33,631 bases of DNA from Terriglobia bacterium. Lineage in GTDB: Bacteria > Acidobacteriota > Terriglobia > Bryobacterales > Bryobacteraceae. The notes under the pieces were generated by a model, which ran no database searches, was not told where the DNA came from, and saw only the letters and a program-made list of their open reading frames with translations. The stretch lies in the NCBI GenBank assembly GCA_025358575.1, contig JANYJA010000210.1, forward strand, positions 1-33,631. Reading direction: 5' to 3'. The position numbers and the translations under genes are program-made. Of this stretch, positions 21,481-33,631 are shown piece after piece (positions within the stretch are counted from its first letter, which is position 1; every line of letters begins with the position of its first letter).

Positions 21481-21557
21481 TGGTGGGCGCTCACGGGATC
21501 GAACCGTGGACCTCCTGCTTGTAAGGCAGGCGCTCTAACCGGCTGAGCTAAGCGCCC
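21481..21557 (-). tRNA. tRNA-Val (anticodon TAC)
   Basis: Read on the minus strand, the 77-base gene forms a full cloverleaf. The acceptor stem GGGCGCT pairs perfectly with AGCGCCC; discriminator A and an encoded CCA follow. The D-arm is TAGCTCAGCCGGTTAGAGC, the anticodon stem CCTGC/GCAGG holds the loop CTTACAA (anticodon TAC), and the T-arm contains GGTTCGATCC. Confidence 0.96.
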
Positions 21558-24327: not shown

Positions 24328-24686
24328 AGTGGCTGCTGGTCGCGATTGTCGTTGCCACCACCACCGTGGGCGAGGTCGTGCAAGCGATGGGCATGAAGCA
24401 TCACGGGGAAATCCACGACTTTTCACCCACTGCGCTTGGCCGCGTTTTAGCCACGCTTACCCGAAACCGCTACATCCTGATCTCATTTCTCGCCATGGCT
24501 TTTTCATTCTTCGCGTTCATGGCCTTAATTTCAGTGGCTGACCTGAGCTTCGCCGTTCCGGCAACCGCAGCCAGCTACGTCATGGAGACTATCTTGGCGA
24601 AGGTGCTCCTCAAAGAACACATCGGCTTCAAACGCTGGGCCGGAGCGCTTTTGGTCACCGGCGGCGTCACGCTGCTCTCCATGTGA
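24324..24686 (+). CDS. EamA/SMR-type half transporter, second of a pair
   Basis: This 120-residue, four-helix protein begins MKWLLVAIVVATTTVGEVVQ at 24324, inside the stop of the preceding gene, and contains SVADLSFAVPATAASYVMET and LLKEHIGFKRWAGALLVTGGV, parallel to ADLSYVLPITS and FLHELVSPTRWAG in its partner. The start used is the one giving a membrane helix at once; an earlier in-frame ATG adds only out-of-frame translation of the partner. Both halves retain the E-x-x-x-x-x-RW-G loop motif. The four-base overlap ATGTGA links it to hpnI, whose GTG lies inside its stop. Confidence 0.85.
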   Translation: MKWLLVAIVVATTTVGEVVQAMGMKHHGEIHDFSPTALGRVLATLTRNRYILISFLAMAFSFFAFMALISVADLSFAVPATAASYVMETILAKVLLKEHIGFKRWAGALLVTGGVTLLSM

Positions 24687-25786
24687 TCTGGCTAGCGCTG
24701 CCAGCCGTTGCCGCGTCCTGCTATTACGTTCTGGCGCTTTTCGGCGCGCTCCAGGCCGCGACTAAACGAAGACACCAAACCGACTTTACGCCTCCGGTCT
24801 CAATCCTGAAACCAATTAAAGGTCGCGACCCTCTTTTCTACAACGCGATTCTCTCTCACGCGACTCAGCGTTACCCACTGTTCGAAATACTGTTTGGAGT
24901 CGCAGATCCAGGGGATCCTGCCCTGCAAGATATTAATCGGCTTCAGGCGGAACATCCTGAAATTCCGATCCGCATCATCTCTACTTCTAACCCCACGCCC
25001 AACGCCAAAGTTGGCGTGCTGGCTGATTTGGTTCCGCACGCTCAACACGAAATCCTGCTGGTCAATGACAGCGATATCTGCGTGGATCCAGATTATCTTT
25101 GCCGTGCCGTGGCACCTTTGGCCGACCGGGCGGTGGGTCTTTCCACCTGTCTCTATCGAGCGCGCGGCGGGTCGTTTCCCGCCGTCGTCGAGGCGCTCGG
25201 GATTGCCACCGAATTCACGCCGAGCGTTCTCGTCGCGCGGTTGCTCGGTGTCGCGGAATTTGCGCTTGGATCTACAATGGCGTTTCGCAAACGCGACCTC
25301 GCACGAATCGGAGGGTTCGCCGCGATCGCGGATTACTTGGCCGACGATTACCAGCTAGGCGCGCGAATCAAAAAACTTGGGCTTTCAGTCGCATTCGCGA
25401 ATACGGTGGTTCAAACCAACGTGGGCGAGGCGACATGGCGCGGCATCTGGAATCATCAAGTGCGGTGGTCCCGCACCATTCGGGTGTCGCGGCCAGCTGG
25501 ATACTACGGCTACATCGCGACGCAAGCCACCGTTTGGTCTATCCTCGCCGCGATGGCCGGCTTCGGGTTCCTCGCGGGCATCTCTCTTGGTTTACGAGTC
25601 ATCGTGGGAATTTTAACGTCGGAATTTGTTCTTCAAGACCGGAGGTCGCTCGCCTATTTCTGGCTGATACCGCTGCGCGATCTATTCGGCTTCGCCGTTT
25701 GGCTTGCGGGCGTCACTGGAGATTCCGTGGAATGGCGGGGCGAAAGACTGCGGCTTTCCCCGGATGGGAAATTGACGCGGCAATGA
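24683..25786 (+). CDS. hpnI: Hopanoid glycosyltransferase HpnI (GT21, ceramide glucosyltransferase-like)
   Basis: HpnI adds N-acetylglucosamine to bacteriohopanetetrol as the first step toward BHT glucosamine and cyclitol ether. The 367-residue protein, starting at GTG 24683, has an N-terminal membrane helix, the GT-A core with PPVSILKPIKGRDPLFYNAI, the D2 motif NDSDICVDPDYL, D3 in DYLADDYQLGARIKKLG and the (Q/R)xxRW motif HQVRWSRTIRVSRP, all GT21 hallmarks. Further membrane segments follow at about 270-305. Its coupling to two half transporters and hpnJ makes a compact head-group unit. The donor sugar is inferred from the family. It ends 16 bases before the ECF sigma gene. Confidence 0.9.
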   Translation: MIWLALPAVAASCYYVLALFGALQAATKRRHQTDFTPPVSILKPIKGRDPLFYNAILSHATQRYPLFEILFGVADPGDPALQDINRLQAEHPEIPIRIISTSNPTPNAKVGVLADLVPHAQHEILLVNDSDICVDPDYLCRAVAPLADRAVGLSTCLYRARGGSFPAVVEALGIATEFTPSVLVARLLGVAEFALGSTMAFRKRDLARIGGFAAIADYLADDYQLGARIKKLGLSVAFANTVVQTNVGEATWRGIWNHQVRWSRTIRVSRPAGYYGYIATQATVWSILAAMAGFGFLAGISLGLRVIVGILTSEFVLQDRRSLAYFWLIPLRDLFGFAVWLAGVTGDSVEWRGERLRLSPDGKLTRQ

Positions 25787-25802: not shown

Positions 25803-26363
25803 TTGGAACGACAATCCTTCGACCAGGAGTACGTTCGCAAGCTAACGCAAGGCGATCCGGAAGTTTCGCGGCACTTCACCGACTACTTTTCCGAACTGCT
25901 CCAGATTAAGCTGCGCTTCCGTCTTCGGTCACCGCAGCTTGCCGAAGACGCGCGTCAGGAAACATTTCTGCGTGTTTTTTCAACTCTTCGCAAAGGCGGC
26001 ATCGAACAGCCCGACCGTCTCGGAGCATTTGTAAACTCCGTGTGCAACAACGTGATTTTCGAGCAGCTCCGTTCGCACACGCGCGCATCGCAAATGCCTG
26101 AAAATCTTCCCGACCCGCCGGACCTTCGCTTCAATGCCGAGTCCCATCTGGTTACCGAACAGCGCAAGTCCAATGTCAGGAAGGTCATCGACAACCTCCC
26201 TGAAAGAGACCGCCAAGTGCTTAAAATGGTTTTTCTGGAAGAAAAAAATCGCGAGGAAGTTTGTTCCATCATGAAGATTGAGGGCGAGTACTTGCGAGTG
26301 CTGTTGCACCGCGCCAAATCGCGCCTTAAAACTGAAATGACAAAGGTGCGCTTACATTTGTGA
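25803..26363 (+). CDS. ECF sigma factor
   Basis: The 186-residue protein has sigma region 2 (TDYFSELLQIKLRFRLRSPQ, QLAEDARQETFLRVFSTL, DRLGAFVNSVCNNVIFEQLR) and region 4 (NLPERDRQVLKMVFLEEKNR, EEVCSIMKIEGEYLRVLLHRAKSRLKTEM) with a helix-turn-helix. It starts at TTG 25803, but the AGGTG before it is only two bases away, so the exact start is uncertain. It is followed after 45 bases by a zinc-finger anti-sigma gene, which presumably restrains it. It probably directs transcription of its own cluster, including the CHAT protein gene. No clear target promoter pair was identified. Confidence 0.87.
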   Translation: MERQSFDQEYVRKLTQGDPEVSRHFTDYFSELLQIKLRFRLRSPQLAEDARQETFLRVFSTLRKGGIEQPDRLGAFVNSVCNNVIFEQLRSHTRASQMPENLPDPPDLRFNAESHLVTEQRKSNVRKVIDNLPERDRQVLKMVFLEEKNREEVCSIMKIEGEYLRVLLHRAKSRLKTEMTKVRLHL

Positions 26364-26408
26364 GACCCTTTTGAAACGAAGTCGCGCGGTGTTTCACTAG
26401 TTATCGAG

Positions 26409-27086
26409 ATGAACGACATGGATCATCAAAAGGCTGTCGATCTGCAAGCCAGCGAACGCTATTTCCTGGGCCAACTTTCCGAAATCGAATCGGAGGCGTT
26501 TGAGGCGCACTTCTTTGAGTGCGTTCACTGCGCTGAAGATGTCCGCACTACGGCCGCATTCGCCGACAATGCAAAGGCCGTTTTCCTTGAGCAACCGTTC
26601 CGCAAAGCCGTCGATTCAAAGGAGAAACGACGCTGGCTGGGTTCGTTTAGCGGATTCTGGAACCCGTTGCAGGCAGCGCCGATGGCCGCGGCGGTTTTAT
26701 TGGCGGCGTTGGTGGGCTATCAATCGCTCGTGGTGATTCCGGCATTGCGACAGCCGTTGATCGTCAGTACGATGACCTTGCGGCCTGCATCGCGCGGGGA
26801 GGAACCGGTATATCGAGTGCGGAGCGGCGATGGATTTCTTCCTTTGCGGGTGGAAGTCAACCCGCGACAGCCGGTCTCGGAGTACCATTGCGAGCTTCGG
26901 ACGGATTCGGGGTCGGTGCTGTTTCCCATGACCACGACGGCGCCGCAGTCGGGAACGCCTCTCACCGTATTGTTGCCGCTCGACAAGCTGAAAGCGGGTC
27001 ATTACACCTTTGTGGTTGCCGATGCCCAAAAAAATGAGATCGAACGATATCCATTTGTGTTAGACAAGATAGCTGAGGTGAAGTGA
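26409..27086 (+). CDS. Membrane anti-sigma factor with zinc-finger (zf-HC2-like) domain
   Basis: The 225-residue protein has an N-terminal anti-sigma domain, ASERYFLGQLSEIESEAFEA followed by HFFECVHCAEDVRT, in which the His and the two Cys (HxxxCxxC) form the zinc site. One membrane helix follows (about 90-112, APMAAAVLLAALVGYQSLVV). The region after the helix is strand-rich with no known domain: LPLRVEVNPRQPVSEYHCEL, LTVLLPLDKLKAGHYTFVVA, resembling a sensing or binding domain in the periplasm. Such ZAS-type proteins bind their ECF sigma and release it on an envelope signal. It sits between the sigma gene and the unknown/CHAT pair. Confidence 0.85.
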   Translation: MNDMDHQKAVDLQASERYFLGQLSEIESEAFEAHFFECVHCAEDVRTTAAFADNAKAVFLEQPFRKAVDSKEKRRWLGSFSGFWNPLQAAPMAAAVLLAALVGYQSLVVIPALRQPLIVSTMTLRPASRGEEPVYRVRSGDGFLPLRVEVNPRQPVSEYHCELRTDSGSVLFPMTTTAPQSGTPLTVLLPLDKLKAGHYTFVVADAQKNEIERYPFVLDKIAEVK

Positions 27087-27087
27087 A

Positions 27088-27933
27088 GTGATTTTTATGG
27101 AGTCGAGATTCGTTTTCTTGGGAAACGCATGCGGTGTTGCAGGCCATATTCGTCGTCCGGATGACGTCGTCGTTTTTGCAAAAGGCCAGAGCAGCCTTCC
27201 GGTAACTGGCGGCTATTCCAAGTCCGAAGCTAATTGCCAGGACTGTTCGGATGTCGTCACTTTCGATTCCTCTTCCACCATGGCTTCGGCCGACTTTGTG
27301 GATCGCGAAAGCGCCATTGCCCGGACATTCGGAAAAACCGATGGCCAGCCGATCGAAACGCTAAGCAAGGTGAACGCCACGGTAACCAACCTTGCCATGC
27401 TGAAGCGTGTGACGGCAGAGCGCGTGGAGATGAGCCTGACCTCACGTCACGACGGCAACGATGAGGAGCCCCACATTTCGCCCAAAGGCAGCGCCATCGT
27501 CGGCTTACGGATCGACGGTTATTTGCTGGACATTGAGCTCGATACCGATGTGTTCGAACGGTTCGGCACGAAGTCCACCTTCTGCGACGAATATGCGGCG
27601 GGCGAGAATTTTCGGCAAAATTTTTCTTCCCAGCTCTTCTCGGGAGACCGGGAAGACAGCGATGATGAGGATGACACTCAGGTTCCGGAGATGCACGGTT
27701 ACATCGTTTGTACTCTGGTAAGAAAGATATCGTGGGCAGACAAGCCGCACCCCAACGCGAGAATTCACCACAATCACATTCACCTGCCCGACTACGGACG
27801 CATCTACCTTGCGGAGTTACTGATCGGCGAAGGATCCAAACGGCTCACCATGCTTCGCTTCCAACTAGGTTCACCGGTCGGGGGTTCCGCCGCTATTGGC
27901 GACGGCCAAACAAACGGCACGAAATTACCCTAA
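27088..27933 (+). CDS. Unknown protein coupled to the CHAT gene
   Basis: I do not recognise a named domain in these 281 residues. GTG 27088 is preferred as start because GAGGTG lies seven bases upstream; ATG 27097 is the alternative. It has no signal peptide. Visible features are a conserved-looking beginning (FVFLGNACGVAGHIRRPDDV, QSSLPVTGGYS), an acidic patch (GDREDSDDEDDTQVPE), a His cluster (NARIHHNHIHLPDYGRIYLAELLIGEG) and a C-terminus with TMLRFQLGSPVGGSAAIGDG then QTNGTKLP, strand-rich throughout. The stop codon (27931) lies inside the probable start region of the CHAT gene, so translation is likely coupled. It may be a substrate, adaptor or inhibitor of the CHAT protein; that is inference from position only. 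Confidence 0.75.
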   Translation: MIFMESRFVFLGNACGVAGHIRRPDDVVVFAKGQSSLPVTGGYSKSEANCQDCSDVVTFDSSSTMASADFVDRESAIARTFGKTDGQPIETLSKVNATVTNLAMLKRVTAERVEMSLTSRHDGNDEEPHISPKGSAIVGLRIDGYLLDIELDTDVFERFGTKSTFCDEYAAGENFRQNFSSQLFSGDREDSDDEDDTQVPEMHGYIVCTLVRKISWADKPHPNARIHHNHIHLPDYGRIYLAELLIGEGSKRLTMLRFQLGSPVGGSAAIGDGQTNGTKLP

Positions 27934-30377
27934 ACAGAATCGCCGCGCTAACGCTGCTGCTCATTTTAGCGGCTTGCCGCCGGGAATCGAATCCGGCGGA
28001 GCTTTACAGTCGTGCCCGCGACGCTTATCAAAGAGGCGATCTCCCGATCGCTCTAAACCTAACAAATCTGGCCCTGCGGCAAGGGAGAACCGCGTCCGGT
28101 TTCGAATGGCATTGGAACTTTCTTCTTCTTCAATCGCAGATTAAGATTCACAAGGCCAGCGCGGCCGAGGTGTTGGCGGAAATTTCAACGCCAATCGAAG
28201 ATCCAAAGCTGCGGCCCCTCGAAGCGCGCAGGCTTACTGTTCTGGCCAATGCCTACCTGAAGCTTTCGCGTTTGGATGAGGCGGAAGTAGCGCTCAAACA
28301 CGCGGAAACCATGGCCGATGCCGCCGGGAAACCCGAGATCGATCTGCTTTGGGGCGATTTGCTTGACGAGAGGAGCATGCCCGATCCGGCCGAAAAGCGC
28401 TATTCCCAAGCGCTACGGCGCAGCCGCGAACTTCACAACCGATATTTTGAAGCACAAGCCCTCAACGATCTTGGGTATCTTCGATTGCGGGCCGCCCGGT
28501 ACGATGACGCGCAGACATTTTTCGAAGGGGCCGTGACCGCGTTTGACTCCATCCGCGCGGACTTATATGGAAATGTAACACGTCACAATCTGGCAATCTG
28601 CTATGCCAAACTGGGCGATTTCGATCGCGCGCTTGCCGAGCGCCGCAAGGCTCTGGACTTCATGCGGCGCGCGAAGTCGGAACTCTATCAAGAGCAAAAT
28701 TTGGGCGAACTCGGAAATATCTATGTTGCGCAAAACCGCGCGAAAGAGGCCATTCCGTATTTCGAGGAGGCGCTCAGTCTCGCGCGCCGCGTTCATGATT
28801 CTCGAAACTCCGAAATCTGGGCCGGTAACCTGGCGGGGGCACTTCTTAGCACTCACAATTGGGATCGAGCCGCTAAACTGAACGCCGACGCCAGAGTGCT
28901 TGCCGTGAATGCCAAGATCACCGATGCCATCCCGTACCTGCAATTCAATGAGGCGGCGATTGCAGCAGGCCGCGGCGAGACCTCGCATGCCCGATCGCTC
29001 TTCGAAAACTTAATCGCCACGCAAACGTCAAACTCCGCGTTGCTATGGGAGACTCACGCTTCTGCCGGAGAGTTAGAAGCATCCAGCGGGCACACCGTTG
29101 CGGCAAGGGCGCATTTTGAAAGCGCCATCGCAGTCATTCGCAAGGCACGATCCGCCCTCTACCTCGCCGATAACAAGATCACCTTCCACGCGCGGCTAAT
29201 CCATTTCTATCAAGAATATGTGGACCTGCTTATGCAGGCGGGCGATTCGCGCCGCGCTCTTCAAGCAGCCGATTCAAGCCGGGCGTTGGTTCTTGCCGAG
29301 GGCTTCGCTTCCGGCGTTCCCGTTAGTTCAGTGAAAGCTGTAGATTATCAGCGCGTCGCGGCGCGCACCGGAACGGTTCTGCTCTTTTACTGGCTTGCGC
29401 CAAAGCAATCGCGCATGTGGGTGATAACGGCGCGGGCGACGCAGGCTTTGCTACTGCCGCCCGAAGAAGAAATAGCAGGGCATGTGCGAGGCTACCAGCG
29501 GTTCATTGAAGAAGATCTCGGAGACCCACTAGAAACGCGGTCGGCAGATGCGCAGTGGCTGGCGGAAAAAGTTCTGCTGCCCGCTGCCTCGCTAATCCCG
29601 GCGGGGTCGCGAGTGGTGATTGTGCCCGATGGAGCGCTTCACAGCGTCAACCTCGGCACTTTACCGATAGGCGATCCAGCGGCGTATTGGATCTCCCGGG
29701 TCACGCCTTCGATTGCGCCTTCTTTACGCATTTTTGCCGCGGCAGCATCGCGGCAGGCCTCAAGAACCGCCTCGCTGCTTTTGATTGGCGATCCCTCTCA
29801 TCCGCCGCCCGGATTTCCGCATCTTCGTTACGCTGCCAAGGAATTGGCGAGCGTGGCAGCGCAATTCCCGCACCAAACCAATTTTGTGTTGACCGGCGAC
29901 CGAGCTTCGCCAGACGGCTATCGAGCGGCTGATCCCGCGCGCTTTTCGGTGATTCACTTTACAGCACATGCACTGGCTAACCACGCCAGTCCCTTGGACT
30001 CCGCCGTCATCCTTGCCCCCGCGCACAATGAGTACAAGTTGTATGCGCGAGACATCGTACAGATTCCCCTTACGGCCGACCTTGTCACTCTCTCGGCGTG
30101 CCGAAGCGCCGGGGCTCGCTCTTACGCGGGCGAAGGGTTGGTCGGTTTTTCATGGGCTTTCCTGCAAGCGGGCGCGCGCAAGGTGGTCGCGGGGCTGTGG
30201 GATGTGAACGACCAATCGACAGCGGAGCTGATGAACGCGATGTACGGCGGGTTAGCCTCGGGCAAGTCCCCGGAAGTAGCCTTGCGCGACGCGCAGATTG
30301 CCATGATCCGCTCGGCGGGAAATCTCCGAAAACCGTACTATTGGGGGCCATTTCAGGTCTATACCGGCGGCAGTTGA
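27924..30377 (+). CDS. CHAT-domain (caspase-like) TPR lipoprotein; non-standard start
   Basis: This is an approximately 817-residue protein with a lipoprotein signal (TLNRIAALTLLLILAAC, lipobox LAAC with C18), TPR-like helical repeats over about residues 25-420 (for example NPAELYSRARDAYQRGDLPI, RLDEAEVALKHAETMADAA, DFDRALAERRKALDFMRRA) and a C-terminal CHAT protease domain. The His-Cys dyad is intact: H682 in VIHFTAHALAN and C726 in VTLSACRSAGA, followed by GEGLVGFSWAFLQAGARKVV. CHAT proteases act on specific protein targets. The start is odd: no ATG, GTG or TTG lies near the signal peptide. The nearest is ATG 27708, whose 72-residue Arg/Pro/His-rich extension looks like out-of-frame translation of the upstream gene. 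ATT 27924, overlapping the upstream stop, gives a perfect signal. Tethered to a membrane by lipid, it should act in the periplasm. Confidence 0.9.
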   Translation: MTLNRIAALTLLLILAACRRESNPAELYSRARDAYQRGDLPIALNLTNLALRQGRTASGFEWHWNFLLLQSQIKIHKASAAEVLAEISTPIEDPKLRPLEARRLTVLANAYLKLSRLDEAEVALKHAETMADAAGKPEIDLLWGDLLDERSMPDPAEKRYSQALRRSRELHNRYFEAQALNDLGYLRLRAARYDDAQTFFEGAVTAFDSIRADLYGNVTRHNLAICYAKLGDFDRALAERRKALDFMRRAKSELYQEQNLGELGNIYVAQNRAKEAIPYFEEALSLARRVHDSRNSEIWAGNLAGALLSTHNWDRAAKLNADARVLAVNAKITDAIPYLQFNEAAIAAGRGETSHARSLFENLIATQTSNSALLWETHASAGELEASSGHTVAARAHFESAIAVIRKARSALYLADNKITFHARLIHFYQEYVDLLMQAGDSRRALQAADSSRALVLAEGFASGVPVSSVKAVDYQRVAARTGTVLLFYWLAPKQSRMWVITARATQALLLPPEEEIAGHVRGYQRFIEEDLGDPLETRSADAQWLAEKVLLPAASLIPAGSRVVIVPDGALHSVNLGTLPIGDPAAYWISRVTPSIAPSLRIFAAAASRQASRTASLLLIGDPSHPPPGFPHLRYAAKELASVAAQFPHQTNFVLTGDRASPDGYRAADPARFSVIHFTAHALANHASPLDSAVILAPAHNEYKLYARDIVQIPLTADLVTLSACRSAGARSYAGEGLVGFSWAFLQAGARKVVAGLWDVNDQSTAELMNAMYGGLASGKSPEVALRDAQIAMIRSAGNLRKPYYWGPFQVYTGGS

Positions 30378-30450: not shown

Positions 30451-31152
30451 TTGGTAATTTTGTTGTTTGGGCCGCCCGGTTGCGGAAAAGGGACTCAATC
30501 CCGCTTCATTACCGAAGAGATGAAGCTGCCCGCGATTTCCACCGGAGCGATGCTGCGGGATACTTGCGCCGGCGGTTCTTCGTTGGCGCACACCATCCGC
30601 GAGCTATTGGCTCAAGGGTCGCTCGTACCCGATGACTTTGTGAACGAAATGCTGATCCACCGGCTGGCGCAGGATGATTGCCGCAGGGGATTCTTGCTCG
30701 ACGGGCACCCGCGCACGGTCTCGCAGGCCGAATTTCTGCAAAATTATCTGCGGCATGTAGGCCACGCCGAACCGGTTGTGATTCATCTGGATGTCGAAGC
30801 CGCGGTATTGATCGCGAGGCTGTCGGCGCGACGCCAATGCTCGCTGTGCTCGTCAATTTACAACATGCAGTCGAAGCCGCCGCAGCTTCCAGGCGTCTGC
30901 GATTTCGATGGCGCGCGGCTAACCACTCGCACCGATGACCGGGTGGACGTGGTGCGCGATCGAATGACGGCGTATGAGCGCCTGACCAACCCCGTGATTT
31001 CTTTCTATGCGGGGCAGCGATACCACCGGCTGGATGGTGACCGCGCGCCTTTCGAGATTTCAAGCGAGATCACGAATCTGCTGCGCGAACGCTATATTAA
31101 AGCTTCTTCCGCCTCGGGCAATACATCGCCAGCGCGCGCGAACCACATGTAG
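30451..31152 (+). CDS. adk: Adenylate kinase family protein, variant active site
   Basis: The 233-residue protein starts at TTG 30451 (GGGAGGG upstream; an in-frame stop rules out a longer start). It has the P-loop G7PPGCGKGT, DDF-x-NEML AMP-site segment, and a LID with zinc ligands C130, C133, C150 and D153 (CSLC, then CDFDG), the same positions as the Cys3-Asp zinc site of Bacillus adenylate kinase. Two normally invariant sites differ: STGAMLR has Ala where Asp is usual, and DGHPRT has His where Phe is usual. A C-terminal tail of about 20 residues is extra and is encoded within the 61 bases overlapping the converging RND gene. It may be an active adenylate kinase or a divergent paralogue tied to the CHAT cluster. 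Confidence 0.85.
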   Translation: MVILLFGPPGCGKGTQSRFITEEMKLPAISTGAMLRDTCAGGSSLAHTIRELLAQGSLVPDDFVNEMLIHRLAQDDCRRGFLLDGHPRTVSQAEFLQNYLRHVGHAEPVVIHLDVEAAVLIARLSARRQCSLCSSIYNMQSKPPQLPGVCDFDGARLTTRTDDRVDVVRDRMTAYERLTNPVISFYAGQRYHRLDGDRAPFEISSEITNLLRERYIKASSASGNTSPARANHM

Positions 31153-33631
31153 AGGGTGGGGAGCACGAAGATGCTCATCAACAACGTGGCGCTAAGTCCA
31201 CCGACGATCACGATTGCGAACGGTCGTTGCGAATCCGAACCAATGCCATGCGACATCGCCGCCGGTACCAGCCCCAGCGCCGCCACCAGCATAGTCATCA
31301 TCACGGGACGCAGCTTCATCACCGCGCCTTCCTGAACTGCGTCGGTAATAGATTTTCCACGACCGCGCAACTGATTGATGTATTCGATCATGATGACGCC
31401 GGTCTGGACGGCCACGCCGAACAGTGCCAGGAAACCAACGCCTGACGACACGCTGAAGCTGGTGCCCGTCAGATACAGCGCGTACAGTCCGCCTATGGGC
31501 GCGAGCGTGAGTGAAAGCAGAATCAGCGCCGCCCACTTGAACGAATTGAACATGGAATAAAGAATTAAATAGATCAGCAAGATCGTCAAAGGCACAATCA
31601 CCGCGAGCCTGGCGTTGGCGCGCTTCTGGCTTTCATATTCCCCGGCCCAATCCATGTGATACCCCTGCGGGAGTTTCACGCTCTTGGAGACTGCCTTCAT
31701 GGCATTTTCGACTGTGCTAGCGAGATCGCTGCCGCGCACGCTGTATTTGATCGCAATATAACGCGAACTGCCCTCGCGAAAAATCATGGACGCGCCGTCT
31801 TCCACTTTTATGTCGCAAAGCTGGCCCAGAGAAACGCGCTCTCCCGAAGACGCCAAAATTCGAATGGCCGCGATGTCTTCGATACTGCGGCGATACGGCT
31901 CCTGATAACGAACGACTAAATCGTAACGGGCTTCCCCCTGAAGCACTTGCGTGACAGGCTTGCCTCCAACCGCGGTTTCAACGGCGTCCTGCACATCGGT
32001 CACATTGATGCCATAACGGTCGGCCTTGTGGCGATCGATGATTAGATTGATATTGGGCTGGCCTATCACCCGGAAAATACCGAGGTCGGCGACGCCGTTG
32101 ATCTTGCTCATCACGCCAACAACTTTGTCGCCCGTGGATTCGAGGGTTTTCAGGTCGGTGCCGTAAATCTTTACGGCGAGCTGACCTTTCACACCGCTGA
32201 CCGCTTCTTCCATGTTGTCGGCAATGGGTTGCGAGAAATTCCACAGCACCCCGGGAATGGTTTCCAGCTTCCGGTCCATTGCGGAAATCAACTCGTCTTT
32301 GGATTCGAACTGCTTGCGCCACTGGTCGTGCGGCTTGAGATCGACGAAGTATTCGGTGTTGAAGAAGCCGGTCGGGTCCGTTCCGTCATCGGGCCTGCCC
32401 ACCTGAGACACGACCTGAGTAACTTCCGGAAACTTCGCCAGGATGCCGCGGGCAGTTCGCGCGATCCGTTCGCCTTGTGTCGGACCGGTGCTGGAGGCGA
32501 GCGTGCCGCGCGCCCAGATGGCGCCTTCGTCAAGATGCGGCAGAAACTCGGAACCGATCAACCCGCCGATTGCCAGATAGAAGCTGGAACTCATCAGCAC
32601 CAGTACGACCGCGATCGTGACCCAGCGATGCCCGAGACACCAACGAAGCGAGGCACTGTACCGGTTCGTGACCCATCCCAGCATCGGATTCTCCCACTCT
32701 TTGGCGCCCTTGCGGAAAACGAAACTCGAGAGTACCGGGGCCAGCAGCATGGAATAGATCAGCGCTCCCAGCAGCGCGAAAGCCACGGTCCAGGCCATTG
32801 GCCGGAAAAGCCGGCCCTCTACCCGCTGGAGCGTGAAGATCGGCAGGTACGAAGTAATGATGATTGCGATCGCGTAGAAAACGGGACGCTGAACCTCATG
32901 CGCGGCTTTGCGGATCTTCTCAATAACGGGCATGTCTTCGGCGTCCGGATGGCTGACGTAGCGCAAGATGTTTTCCACCATCACGACTGCGCCATGCACC
33001 ACCATGCCGAAATCGAGCGCGCCCAGCGAAAGCAAGTTCGCGGGAATGCCTCGAAATTGCAGCAGGATTGAGGCGAACAATAAAGAGAAGGGAATTGTCG
33101 CCGCGACAATCAGGGAGCTCGGTATGTTGCCAAGAAACAGGAACAGAATAAGAACCACAAGCACAATGCCTTCGGTCAGGTTGTGTAAAACCGTGTGCGT
33201 CGTGAAGTGCACCAGATCGCTGCGGTCAAGGTGAGGGACCACCTTCACTCCGGGCGGAAGAATTCCGCCGTTGAGTTGGGCAATTTTCTTGTGGATGCCT
33301 TCCAAAGTTTCATCCGGAAGCGCGCCCTTGCGCATCAGGATGATTCCCTCAATCACATCGTCGTTGTCGAGGACGCGGCCATTCTCACGATGAATTGCTT
33401 TTCCTAGCTGACCGAGCCGAACCTTCGCCCCCTGTATGACGTCGCCAATGTCGCGCACGCGCACGGGCGTGCCGTTCACGGATTTAATCACGGTTGAGCC
33501 TATGTCTTCGGTATTGGACATGAGTCCGATGGCGCGCACGTTGAATGCCTGCTGGCCGTGCTCGATGAAACCGCCGCCGGCATTCACGTTGTTTGCGGAT
33601 ATGGCTTGCTCCACTTGCGCAATGCTGAGAC
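31092..33631 (-). CDS. RND heavy-metal efflux pump inner-membrane subunit (CusA/CzcA-like), partial
   Basis: The minus-strand frame runs off the right edge; about 845 C-terminal residues are present out of about 1040. The family signature is strong: SIAQVEQAISANNVNAGGGF, IARTARGILAKFPEVTQVVS, and the GVGFLALFGVAVQTGVIMIE transmembrane repeat with QEGAVMKLRPVMMTMLVAALG near the end. HME-RND pumps export Cu, Ag, Zn, Co or related substrates by proton exchange with MFP and OMF partners, which would lie outside the window. One proton-relay position differs: ALDFGMVVHGAVVMVEN has His where CzcA-type pumps have Asp (codon at 32994-32996, CAT instead of GAT). It overlaps the adenylate kinase gene end by 61 bases. 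Confidence 0.92.
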   Translation of the reverse strand, partial: LSIAQVEQAISANNVNAGGGFIEHGQQAFNVRAIGLMSNTEDIGSTVIKSVNGTPVRVRDIGDVIQGAKVRLGQLGKAIHRENGRVLDNDDVIEGIILMRKGALPDETLEGIHKKIAQLNGGILPPGVKVVPHLDRSDLVHFTTHTVLHNLTEGIVLVVLILFLFLGNIPSSLIVAATIPFSLLFASILLQFRGIPANLLSLGALDFGMVVHGAVVMVENILRYVSHPDAEDMPVIEKIRKAAHEVQRPVFYAIAIIITSYLPIFTLQRVEGRLFRPMAWTVAFALLGALIYSMLLAPVLSSFVFRKGAKEWENPMLGWVTNRYSASLRWCLGHRWVTIAVVLVLMSSSFYLAIGGLIGSEFLPHLDEGAIWARGTLASSTGPTQGERIARTARGILAKFPEVTQVVSQVGRPDDGTDPTGFFNTEYFVDLKPHDQWRKQFESKDELISAMDRKLETIPGVLWNFSQPIADNMEEAVSGVKGQLAVKIYGTDLKTLESTGDKVVGVMSKINGVADLGIFRVIGQPNINLIIDRHKADRYGINVTDVQDAVETAVGGKPVTQVLQGEARYDLVVRYQEPYRRSIEDIAAIRILASSGERVSLGQLCDIKVEDGASMIFREGSSRYIAIKYSVRGSDLASTVENAMKAVSKSVKLPQGYHMDWAGEYESQKRANARLAVIVPLTILLIYLILYSMFNSFKWAALILLSLTLAPIGGLYALYLTGTSFSVSSGVGFLALFGVAVQTGVIMIEYINQLRGRGKSITDAVQEGAVMKLRPVMMTMLVAALGLVPAAMSHGIGSDSQRPFAIVIVGGLSATLLMSIFVLPTLYMWFARAGDVLPEAEEALI

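Follow-up and report, generated by a model that had tools for sequence, protein, structure and literature searches.

A conserved four-gene unit

The stretch analyzed here, called the window, is a contig of 33,631 nucleotides (nt) from a Terriglobia bacterium of the phylum Acidobacteriota (JANYJA010000210.1, assembly GCA_025358575.1). On its + strand, positions 25803-30377 are occupied by four consecutive genes, which code for an extracytoplasmic function (ECF) sigma factor, a zinc-finger anti-sigma factor, a protein of 281 amino acids (aa), called the beta-protein below, and a large protein with tetratricopeptide repeats (TPRs) and a CHAT domain. The four-gene unit is real and is conserved as one. 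In relatives its genes travel together and the CHAT domain keeps its His-Cys dyad; the CHAT protein has a stretch for membrane targeting and a modelled fold like those of DdvA, Csx29 and separase. The locus contains the following features.

25803..26363, + strand: ECF-type sigma factor, 186 aa, TTG start, with matches to Sigma70_r2, Sigma70_r4 and TIGR02937
26409..27086, + strand: membrane anti-sigma factor, 225 aa, with the motif HxxxCxxC at 26508-26531 and a predicted transmembrane (TM) stretch at 26673-26738
27088..27933, + strand: beta-protein, 281 aa from a GTG start (278 aa from ATG 27097), predicted all-beta and distantly like choice-of-anchor P
27708..30377, + strand: TPR-CHAT protein, 889 aa from TTG 27708 (817 aa from ATT 27924), matched by CHAT and TPR models
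27708..27710, + strand: candidate CHAT start codon TTG, spanning a Val-Cys codon boundary of the beta-protein (third base of Val, first and second bases of Cys)
27936..27977, + strand: hydrophobic signal/anchor stretch of CHAT, RIAALTLLLILAAC, mean hydropathy 2.32, with the lipobox LAAC (Cys codon 27975-27977)
29967..29969, + strand: dyad His codon of CHAT (His754 of 889; His682 of 817), invariant column
30099..30101, + strand: dyad Cys codon of CHAT (Cys798 of 889; Cys726 of 817), invariant column

The conservation of the unit was followed in two sets of loci, which have nine genomes in common. The first set consisted of 36 loci with the beta-protein that were obtained by searching 200 class genomes, and the second of 55 loci from a named genome collection, in which the scan was limited by the peptide patterns used. 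The order sigma, anti-sigma, beta-protein, CHAT was complete in 32 of the 36 and in 49 of the 55 loci, which bears out the claim of an earlier, sequence-only reading of this DNA that the four adjacent genes form one unit. Among the exceptions in the first set, locus L043 is without a detected sigma gene and L054 ends with its contig. In the second set, 54 of the 55 loci belong to Acidobacteriota; the sole locus outside this phylum, L116, is a complete unit in a genome labelled Myxococcota. Among the species with the unit are the cultured Granulicella aggregans (L109), Silvibacterium bohemicum (L112) and Acidicapsa dinghuensis (L124).

The beta-protein was found in 37 of the 200 class genomes by sequence search and in 41 by profile. 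The CHAT orthologue was found at 41 places scoring at least 254 bits, in 40 of the genomes, with paralogues next at no more than 130 bits; five candidates were scored per genome, and further orthologues could be missed. All 40 genomes with the CHAT orthologue also carry the beta-protein. The only genome with the beta-protein alone (G188) has its gene at a contig edge. The sequence-only reading had named loss of the beta-protein or of the sigma pair from relatives as a refutation, and this did not occur: clusters in relatives keep both the beta-protein and the sigma/anti-sigma pair, the exception being one of the 41 orthologues (L125, described below).

The identities assigned earlier to the sigma, anti-sigma and TPR-CHAT genes were confirmed, and for the beta-protein no Pfam match passed or came near the cut-off. 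The sigma factor matched Sigma70_r2 (E 4.5e-6) and Sigma70_r4 (E 7e-7), both above the Pfam cut-offs, and TIGR02937 with 67.5 bits against a cut-off of 42.9. With regions 2 and 4 in a protein of only 186 aa, it has the build of an ECF factor. The anti-sigma protein has the HxxxCxxC motif and one hydrophobic stretch, followed by a predicted extracytoplasmic part of about 115 aa; within the family, the motif is present in 114 of 116 proteins and the TM stretch in 102 of 116. Judged by the motif and the TM stretch, the 225-aa protein is an anti-sigma factor of the zinc-associated (ZAS) type, although its zf-HC2 match (18.8 bits, E 0.0018) lies below the Pfam cut-off of 22.2.

In the case of the CHAT protein, the domain PF12770 was matched with 175.6 bits (curated cut-off 24, E 2e-51). 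Several TPR models matched as well, in agreement with the repeats noticed earlier. The His-Cys dyad, which the sequence-only reading had called intact under the numbering 682/726, is invariant in 37 of 37 rows of one alignment and in 45 of 45 of another. The AlphaFold2 model of the 817-aa reading had a mean predicted local distance difference test (pLDDT) score of 89.0 and a predicted TM-score (pTM) of 0.81. When this model was compared with the PDB by Foldseek, DdvA came first (8rw5, E 6.0e-15; 8rot, E 6.5e-15), followed by Csx29 (8eey, E 4.8e-14) and separase (9hn0, E 1.6e-12). Searching PDB sequences with the CHAT-domain profile gave weak matches throughout, the best to DdvA (E 0.0021), then to separases (0.012 to 0.015) and Csx29 (0.014); in the weak DdvA alignment, the His and Cys are kept at the dyad columns. 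The NCBIfam Csx29 model scored 16.6 bits on the window protein, far below its cut-off of 300. As modelled, the protein has a TPR-CHAT fold resembling DdvA, Csx29 and separase. The sequence-only reading had contrasted a CHAT protein behind an envelope ECF switch with the cytosolic CHAT proteases of well-studied systems. Such a switch has a precedent, as the best Foldseek matches are to DdvA, a transmembrane anti-sigma factor.

The start of the CHAT gene

The length of 817 residues given earlier for the CHAT protein belongs to a reading that begins on ATT 27924. In the CHAT frame of the window, no ATG, GTG or TTG other than TTG 27708 precedes the hydrophobic stretch, and this usual start gives 889 aa in place of 817. 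From this codon, the CHAT gene would overlap the beta-protein gene by 226 nt. The position of the start was analyzed in relatives. Of 137 gathered loci, 117 were retained as non-redundant after removal of 12 duplicates, 7 loci lacking the beta-protein or CHAT, and 1 that had unread bases or an open end; those with a broken or distant CHAT start (e.g., L088, L115, L122, L123, L131, L134) were kept.

Relative to the beta-protein, the CHAT frame is -1 in 85 loci, +1 in 20, and 0 in 12. Among the 32 loci of frames 0 and +1, 30 have a usual start at most 45 codons ahead of the hydrophobic stretch; in the -1 frame, ATG, GTG and TTG are all absent within this distance in 34 of 85 loci. In the -1 frame loci, the base before the Cys of the CSLV motif of the beta-protein forms, together with the Cys codon, ATG in 47, GTG in 12, TTG in 10, and CTG in 3 of the 85. 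An embedded ATG, GTG or TTG at this Cys site was found in 69 of 85 -1 frame loci versus 9 of 32 other-frame loci (56/69 versus 8/28 after clustering at 70% identity, Fisher p 2e-6), and it is present in 32 of the 34 -1 frame loci that have no other start.

The -1 frame is open downstream of the Cys site, with 6 stops in 5320 codons (3 of 69 loci), compared with 441 stops in 14198 codons upstream of the site in the same genes and 44 in 2460 codons in the other-frame loci (25 of 32). An open -1 frame of at least 225 nt was observed in 74 of the 85 -1 frame loci and in 7 of the 32 others. The codon before the Cys has A at its third position 48 times against 19.1 expected (z 8.4), the largest excess of 277 columns. 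Mean anti-Shine-Dalgarno pairing at the Cys site was -6.35 in the -1 frame loci and -4.59 in other-frame loci; control positions gave -3.16. Because Cys-site starts, the open frame, the synonymous excess of A, and the Shine-Dalgarno signal coincide, CHAT very probably starts inside the beta-protein gene in most -1 frame loci.

The embedded start would add an N-terminal extension with a median of 79 residues (44-181) and a median net charge of +8. Selection on the sequence of this extension was considered and rejected: in three identity bands, synonymous codon differences in the overlap and upstream of it were 0.559 vs 0.569, 0.503 vs 0.521, and 0.316 vs 0.381. By this comparison, the extension itself is not clearly under additional constraint. 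For the window, the embedded start at TTG 27708 is weakly supported. Its Shine-Dalgarno pairing energy is only -2.9, and in the window's own family, with 14 loci listed, a usual start at the Cys site is present in the window only. In another family (f6), all 8 loci have a usual start there.

CHAT translation could alternatively begin by a -1 frameshift that yields a fusion with the beta-protein, or on ATT or ATA at the stop of the beta-protein gene; in the window, a sequencing indel could also produce the observed frame. The 34 loci with no nearby start would fit such a scheme, as would the distribution of starts in the window's family, and the ATG of L078 and L110 aligns with the ATT of L092 and L093. 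We consider this explanation improbable, since nearly all of those 34 loci have a start codon at the Cys site, and the excess of A and the Shine-Dalgarno signal point to initiation. The fusion was rejected as a candidate on the same 32 of 34 loci and on the 32 of 117 loci with CHAT in frame 0 or +1, which a conserved frameshift would not allow. Two apparent in-frame fusions (L099, L120) were left aside, as their sequences contain unread bases (X). In single loci, initiation on ATT or ATA may nevertheless occur, and in the window a start on ATT or an assembly indel may lie behind the odd CHAT start.

An embedded start of this kind would mean that selection has preserved a long overlap between two genes of one strand, a case for which the loci supply internal controls. 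Two papers report purifying selection against long overlaps (PMC2542354, PMC3887535). Gene annotators would probably miss or misplace such starts.

Targeting of CHAT and the beta-protein

Targeting was counted in the 117 loci, with the hydrophobic stretch scored by a simple hydropathy test. The stretch is located ahead of the TPRs in 107 of them, and the membrane-targeting segment proposed earlier for CHAT is thereby upheld. The loose form of a lipobox-like motif was counted in 76 of 117 loci and in 81 of 2340 random CHAT stretches; for the strict form, the counts were 33 of 117 and 44 of 2340. Many Acidobacteriaceae have no Cys at the lipobox place, and several of them have, by eye, a site like that of signal peptidase I. 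Since the stretch is more widespread than either form of the lipobox, membrane targeting of CHAT looks general and lipidation does not. The clear lipobox of the sequence-only reading is seen in the window as the letters LAAC behind the hydrophobic stretch, with the Cys as residue 90 of 889, and fails as a general feature. Counted from TTG 27708, the stretch of the window protein begins at residue 77 and not at the N-terminus. The stretch precedes the whole TPR-CHAT part and is basic on its N-terminal side, and by the positive-inside rule the CHAT body would lie outside.

The beta-protein was searched by profile and by structure. Choice-of-anchor P (NF040603) was matched by 25 of 32 family members at E ≤0.1, with the best at 3.5e-11; the window protein itself scored 13.8 bits (E 0.041), below the cut-off of 27. 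Its model (pLDDT 88.4, pTM 0.87) is all-beta save for three short helices. Foldseek gave 0 matches at E ≤0.001 for this model in the PDB and also in BFVD, the best Z in a second look at the model with VIA-align was 4.9, and the best E of the profile against PDB sequences was 0.59. The searches suggested by the sequence-only reading thus provided a distant likeness and an all-beta model, and neither a Pfam family nor a convincing PDB match; this lack of convincing fold matches is no demonstration of a new fold. Inspection of the alignment by eye, with no signal predictor run, showed no signal peptide, N-terminal hydrophobic stretch or C-terminal anchor, and in this the beta-protein seems to differ from choice-of-anchor P, in addition to its score below the cut-off. 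In relatives, the C-terminus of the beta-protein is a conserved NG-x(2-4)-P or PP immediately ahead of the stop, irrespective of the CHAT frame. A C-terminal Pro slows release.

With no signal peptide seen by eye, the beta-protein looks cytosolic, and it would lie on the opposite side of the membrane from an exported CHAT domain. The sequence-only reading had offered the unknown protein as a possible CHAT substrate. This role is unlikely because the beta-protein looks cytosolic and CHAT is predicted to be exported. It would regain ground if CHAT were cytosolic, or tethered to the membrane and facing inward, with the beta-protein as its direct substrate or inhibitor. Separase and Csx29 work inside the cell, the co-inheritance of the beta-protein with CHAT is tight, and, as might be seen in a zymogen, the model has a disordered loop after the dyad Cys. 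We strongly doubt this arrangement, given the hydrophobic stretch ahead of the whole body with its basic N-terminal side, which would place the body outside, and the excess of lipobox-like motifs over random CHAT stretches.

The proposed circuit and its alternatives

We propose that the unit is an ECF-sigma circuit of Acidobacteriota in which an exported CHAT protein acts on the anti-sigma factor, with the beta-protein as a partner, and we give this reading a probability of roughly 40%. The zinc-finger anti-sigma factor would tether the sigma factor to the inner membrane. Export would bring the TPR-CHAT protein to the envelope, where its hydrophobic stretch, and in some lineages lipid, would hold it. 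Its TPR solenoid may sense an envelope cue or a partner, upon which the separase- or caspase-like CHAT domain would cut or otherwise switch the extracytoplasmic part of the anti-sigma factor, and the sigma factor would be released. The cytosolic beta-protein would be a dedicated partner of CHAT that most likely holds or inhibits it before export; through the coupling or overlap of their reading frames, the two would be produced together. The role of cytosolic keeper or export partner fits best because the beta-protein shares the inheritance and translation of CHAT and, by its predicted location, not its compartment. In this scheme we infer the location of CHAT, the cleavage of the anti-sigma factor, the role of the beta-protein, and the cue. 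A narrower version, in which an exported separase-like protease makes the first cut in the anti-sigma factor, is held by the cytosolic beta-protein, and is made in step with it from a start in the keeper's conserved Cys codon (a same-strand overlap of 215-290 nt), is distinctly unlikely to be right in all its parts.

The scheme would be a two-protein version of what DdvA has in one chain. The DdvS/DdvA system (PDB 8rot, 8rw5) shares with the window unit the combination of ECF sigma factor, transmembrane anti-sigma factor and TPR-CHAT body. According to entry title and span, DdvA unites anti-sigma and TPR-CHAT in a single chain, whereas the window, like the loci of the two sets, has two genes; in the window, the beta-protein gene lies between them and CHAT has a signal/anchor of its own. 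DdvA is the anti-sigma factor of the ECF factor DdvS in Myxococcus xanthus, and its external signal was not known in 2015 (PMC4374960). In Craspase, a type III-E CRISPR system, the TPR-CHAT protease Csx29 cuts Csx30, an inhibitor of the ECF sigma factor CASP-sigma, and there too a TPR-CHAT protease, an ECF sigma factor, and a sigma inhibitor belong to one locus (PMC10028731). In contrast, the inhibitor in the window is a membrane zinc-finger anti-sigma factor and CHAT is predicted to be exported. In a literature search that left preprints and most subscription papers outside, no paper joined the CHAT domain with Acidobacteria; the terms ECF sigma factor, CHAT domain, and anti-sigma met only in the Craspase paper, and the wording TPR-CHAT added one on CalpL.

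The proposed mechanism would work like the release of sigma E of the RseA/DegS type. DegS is a PDZ serine protease, and a CHAT cysteine protease, if it does cut the anti-sigma factor, would be a new kind of first cutter. In RseA/DegS, the envelope protease begins the destruction of the membrane anti-sigma factor (PMC10028731). Protease-released sigma factors are a main bacterial answer to envelope stress. Two solved systems, Craspase and DdvA, link separase-like CHAT proteins to sigma factors, and the present unit joins both ideas. It does so in a soil phylum with little genetics, in the form of distinct parts, widely inherited and open to knock-out one at a time.

Several observations weigh against the proposed circuit. 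In the CHAT model, the loop 728-738 just after the dyad Cys has pLDDT <50, and block means near the dyad His are 75. A second look at the model with VIA-align placed plain TPR proteins of the LGN type at the top (Z 30) and Csx29 (7y85; Z 29.5, 488 aligned, root-mean-square deviation (rmsd) 10.6) above DdvA (Z 24.8, 649 aligned, rmsd 9.9), so that the specific link to DdvA depends on Foldseek. Two loci (L047, L049) have the anti-sigma gene behind CHAT and no sigma gene found nearby. In L125 (G177:C131), the CHAT orthologue stands behind sigma and anti-sigma genes without the beta-protein, which indicates that the beta-protein is not always needed; this locus is a second copy, and the same genome also holds a complete four-gene unit. 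The share of loci with an ECF-like promoter is low as well. Of the regions ahead of the sigma gene in 93 cluster representatives, 14 contain the pair TAGTG-N14-18-CGTTT (shuffled mean 0.1, maximum 1), and in the window the 300 bases before the sigma gene contain neither this pair nor TATACT.

TATACT is present in 42 of the same 93 regions (shuffled mean 2.2, maximum 6). Its distance is nearly constant in most of them, which would fit an extended -10 promoter of the housekeeping kind. Autoregulation by the ECF factor is possible in some relatives; it is not supported in the window because the ECF-like motif occurs in 14 of 93 upstream regions only and is absent there. In the window, no sigma-70-like promoter was detected either.

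CHAT could instead be a sensor that is catalytically silent or not proteolytic: on binding a ligand, its TPR-CHAT body would hold or release the anti-sigma ectodomain through contact alone, much as the DdvA ectodomain might. The precedent of DdvA speaks for it, since a TPR-CHAT body within the anti-sigma chain does not need to cut a separate protein. We regard this as unlikely, as a pure binding domain would not require a dyad that is invariant in both alignments.

The remaining alternative reverses the direction of the circuit: CHAT and the beta-protein would be outputs of the switch, and the sigma factor would turn on an envelope protease and its partner for other targets, e.g., phage or envelope damage. 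Their genes do stand downstream of the sigma/anti-sigma pair in the same order. In 17 near genomes, 39 CHAT matches were found, and a sigma or anti-sigma match was near in 11 of the 21 loci inspected; both genes stood beside CHAT on the same strand in 7 of the 21, two of the seven being this cassette, so order and partners vary. PADLOC gave little sign of a defense system, as CHAT matched only a general TPR model and the anti-sigma protein matched DruB1 weakly (E 0.017). Co-inheritance with a single sigma subfamily further suggests a closed circuit. On balance, the output role appears somewhat unlikely, and the circuit in which CHAT acts on the anti-sigma factor remains our preferred reading.

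Elsewhere in the same bacterial family, too, genes for secreted TPR-CHAT proteins neighbor ECF sigma/anti-sigma pairs. The genome of the window has a second CHAT gene (L069, G000:C208, 719-4446), one of the loci counted above, in the order CHAT, sigma, zinc-finger anti-sigma; as in the window unit, CHAT is beside an ECF sigma/anti-sigma pair, but here CHAT is first and no beta-protein was found. At L091 (2902-13334), a complete unit is followed on the opposite strand by a second sigma gene of the same subfamily and another CHAT gene.

In the window, the unit is preceded by a gene for a glycosyltransferase of family 21 (PF13506, E 3e-43; 24683-25786), which ends 17 bases before the sigma gene. 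An adenylate kinase gene (ADK, E 8.5e-42) lies behind the unit at 30451-31152, and the end of its frame is overlapped by a long open frame on the - strand (31092-33629), which by eye only resembles a resistance-nodulation-division (RND) efflux pump. The sole tRNA found in the window is tRNA-Val (tac), on the - strand at 21481-21557.

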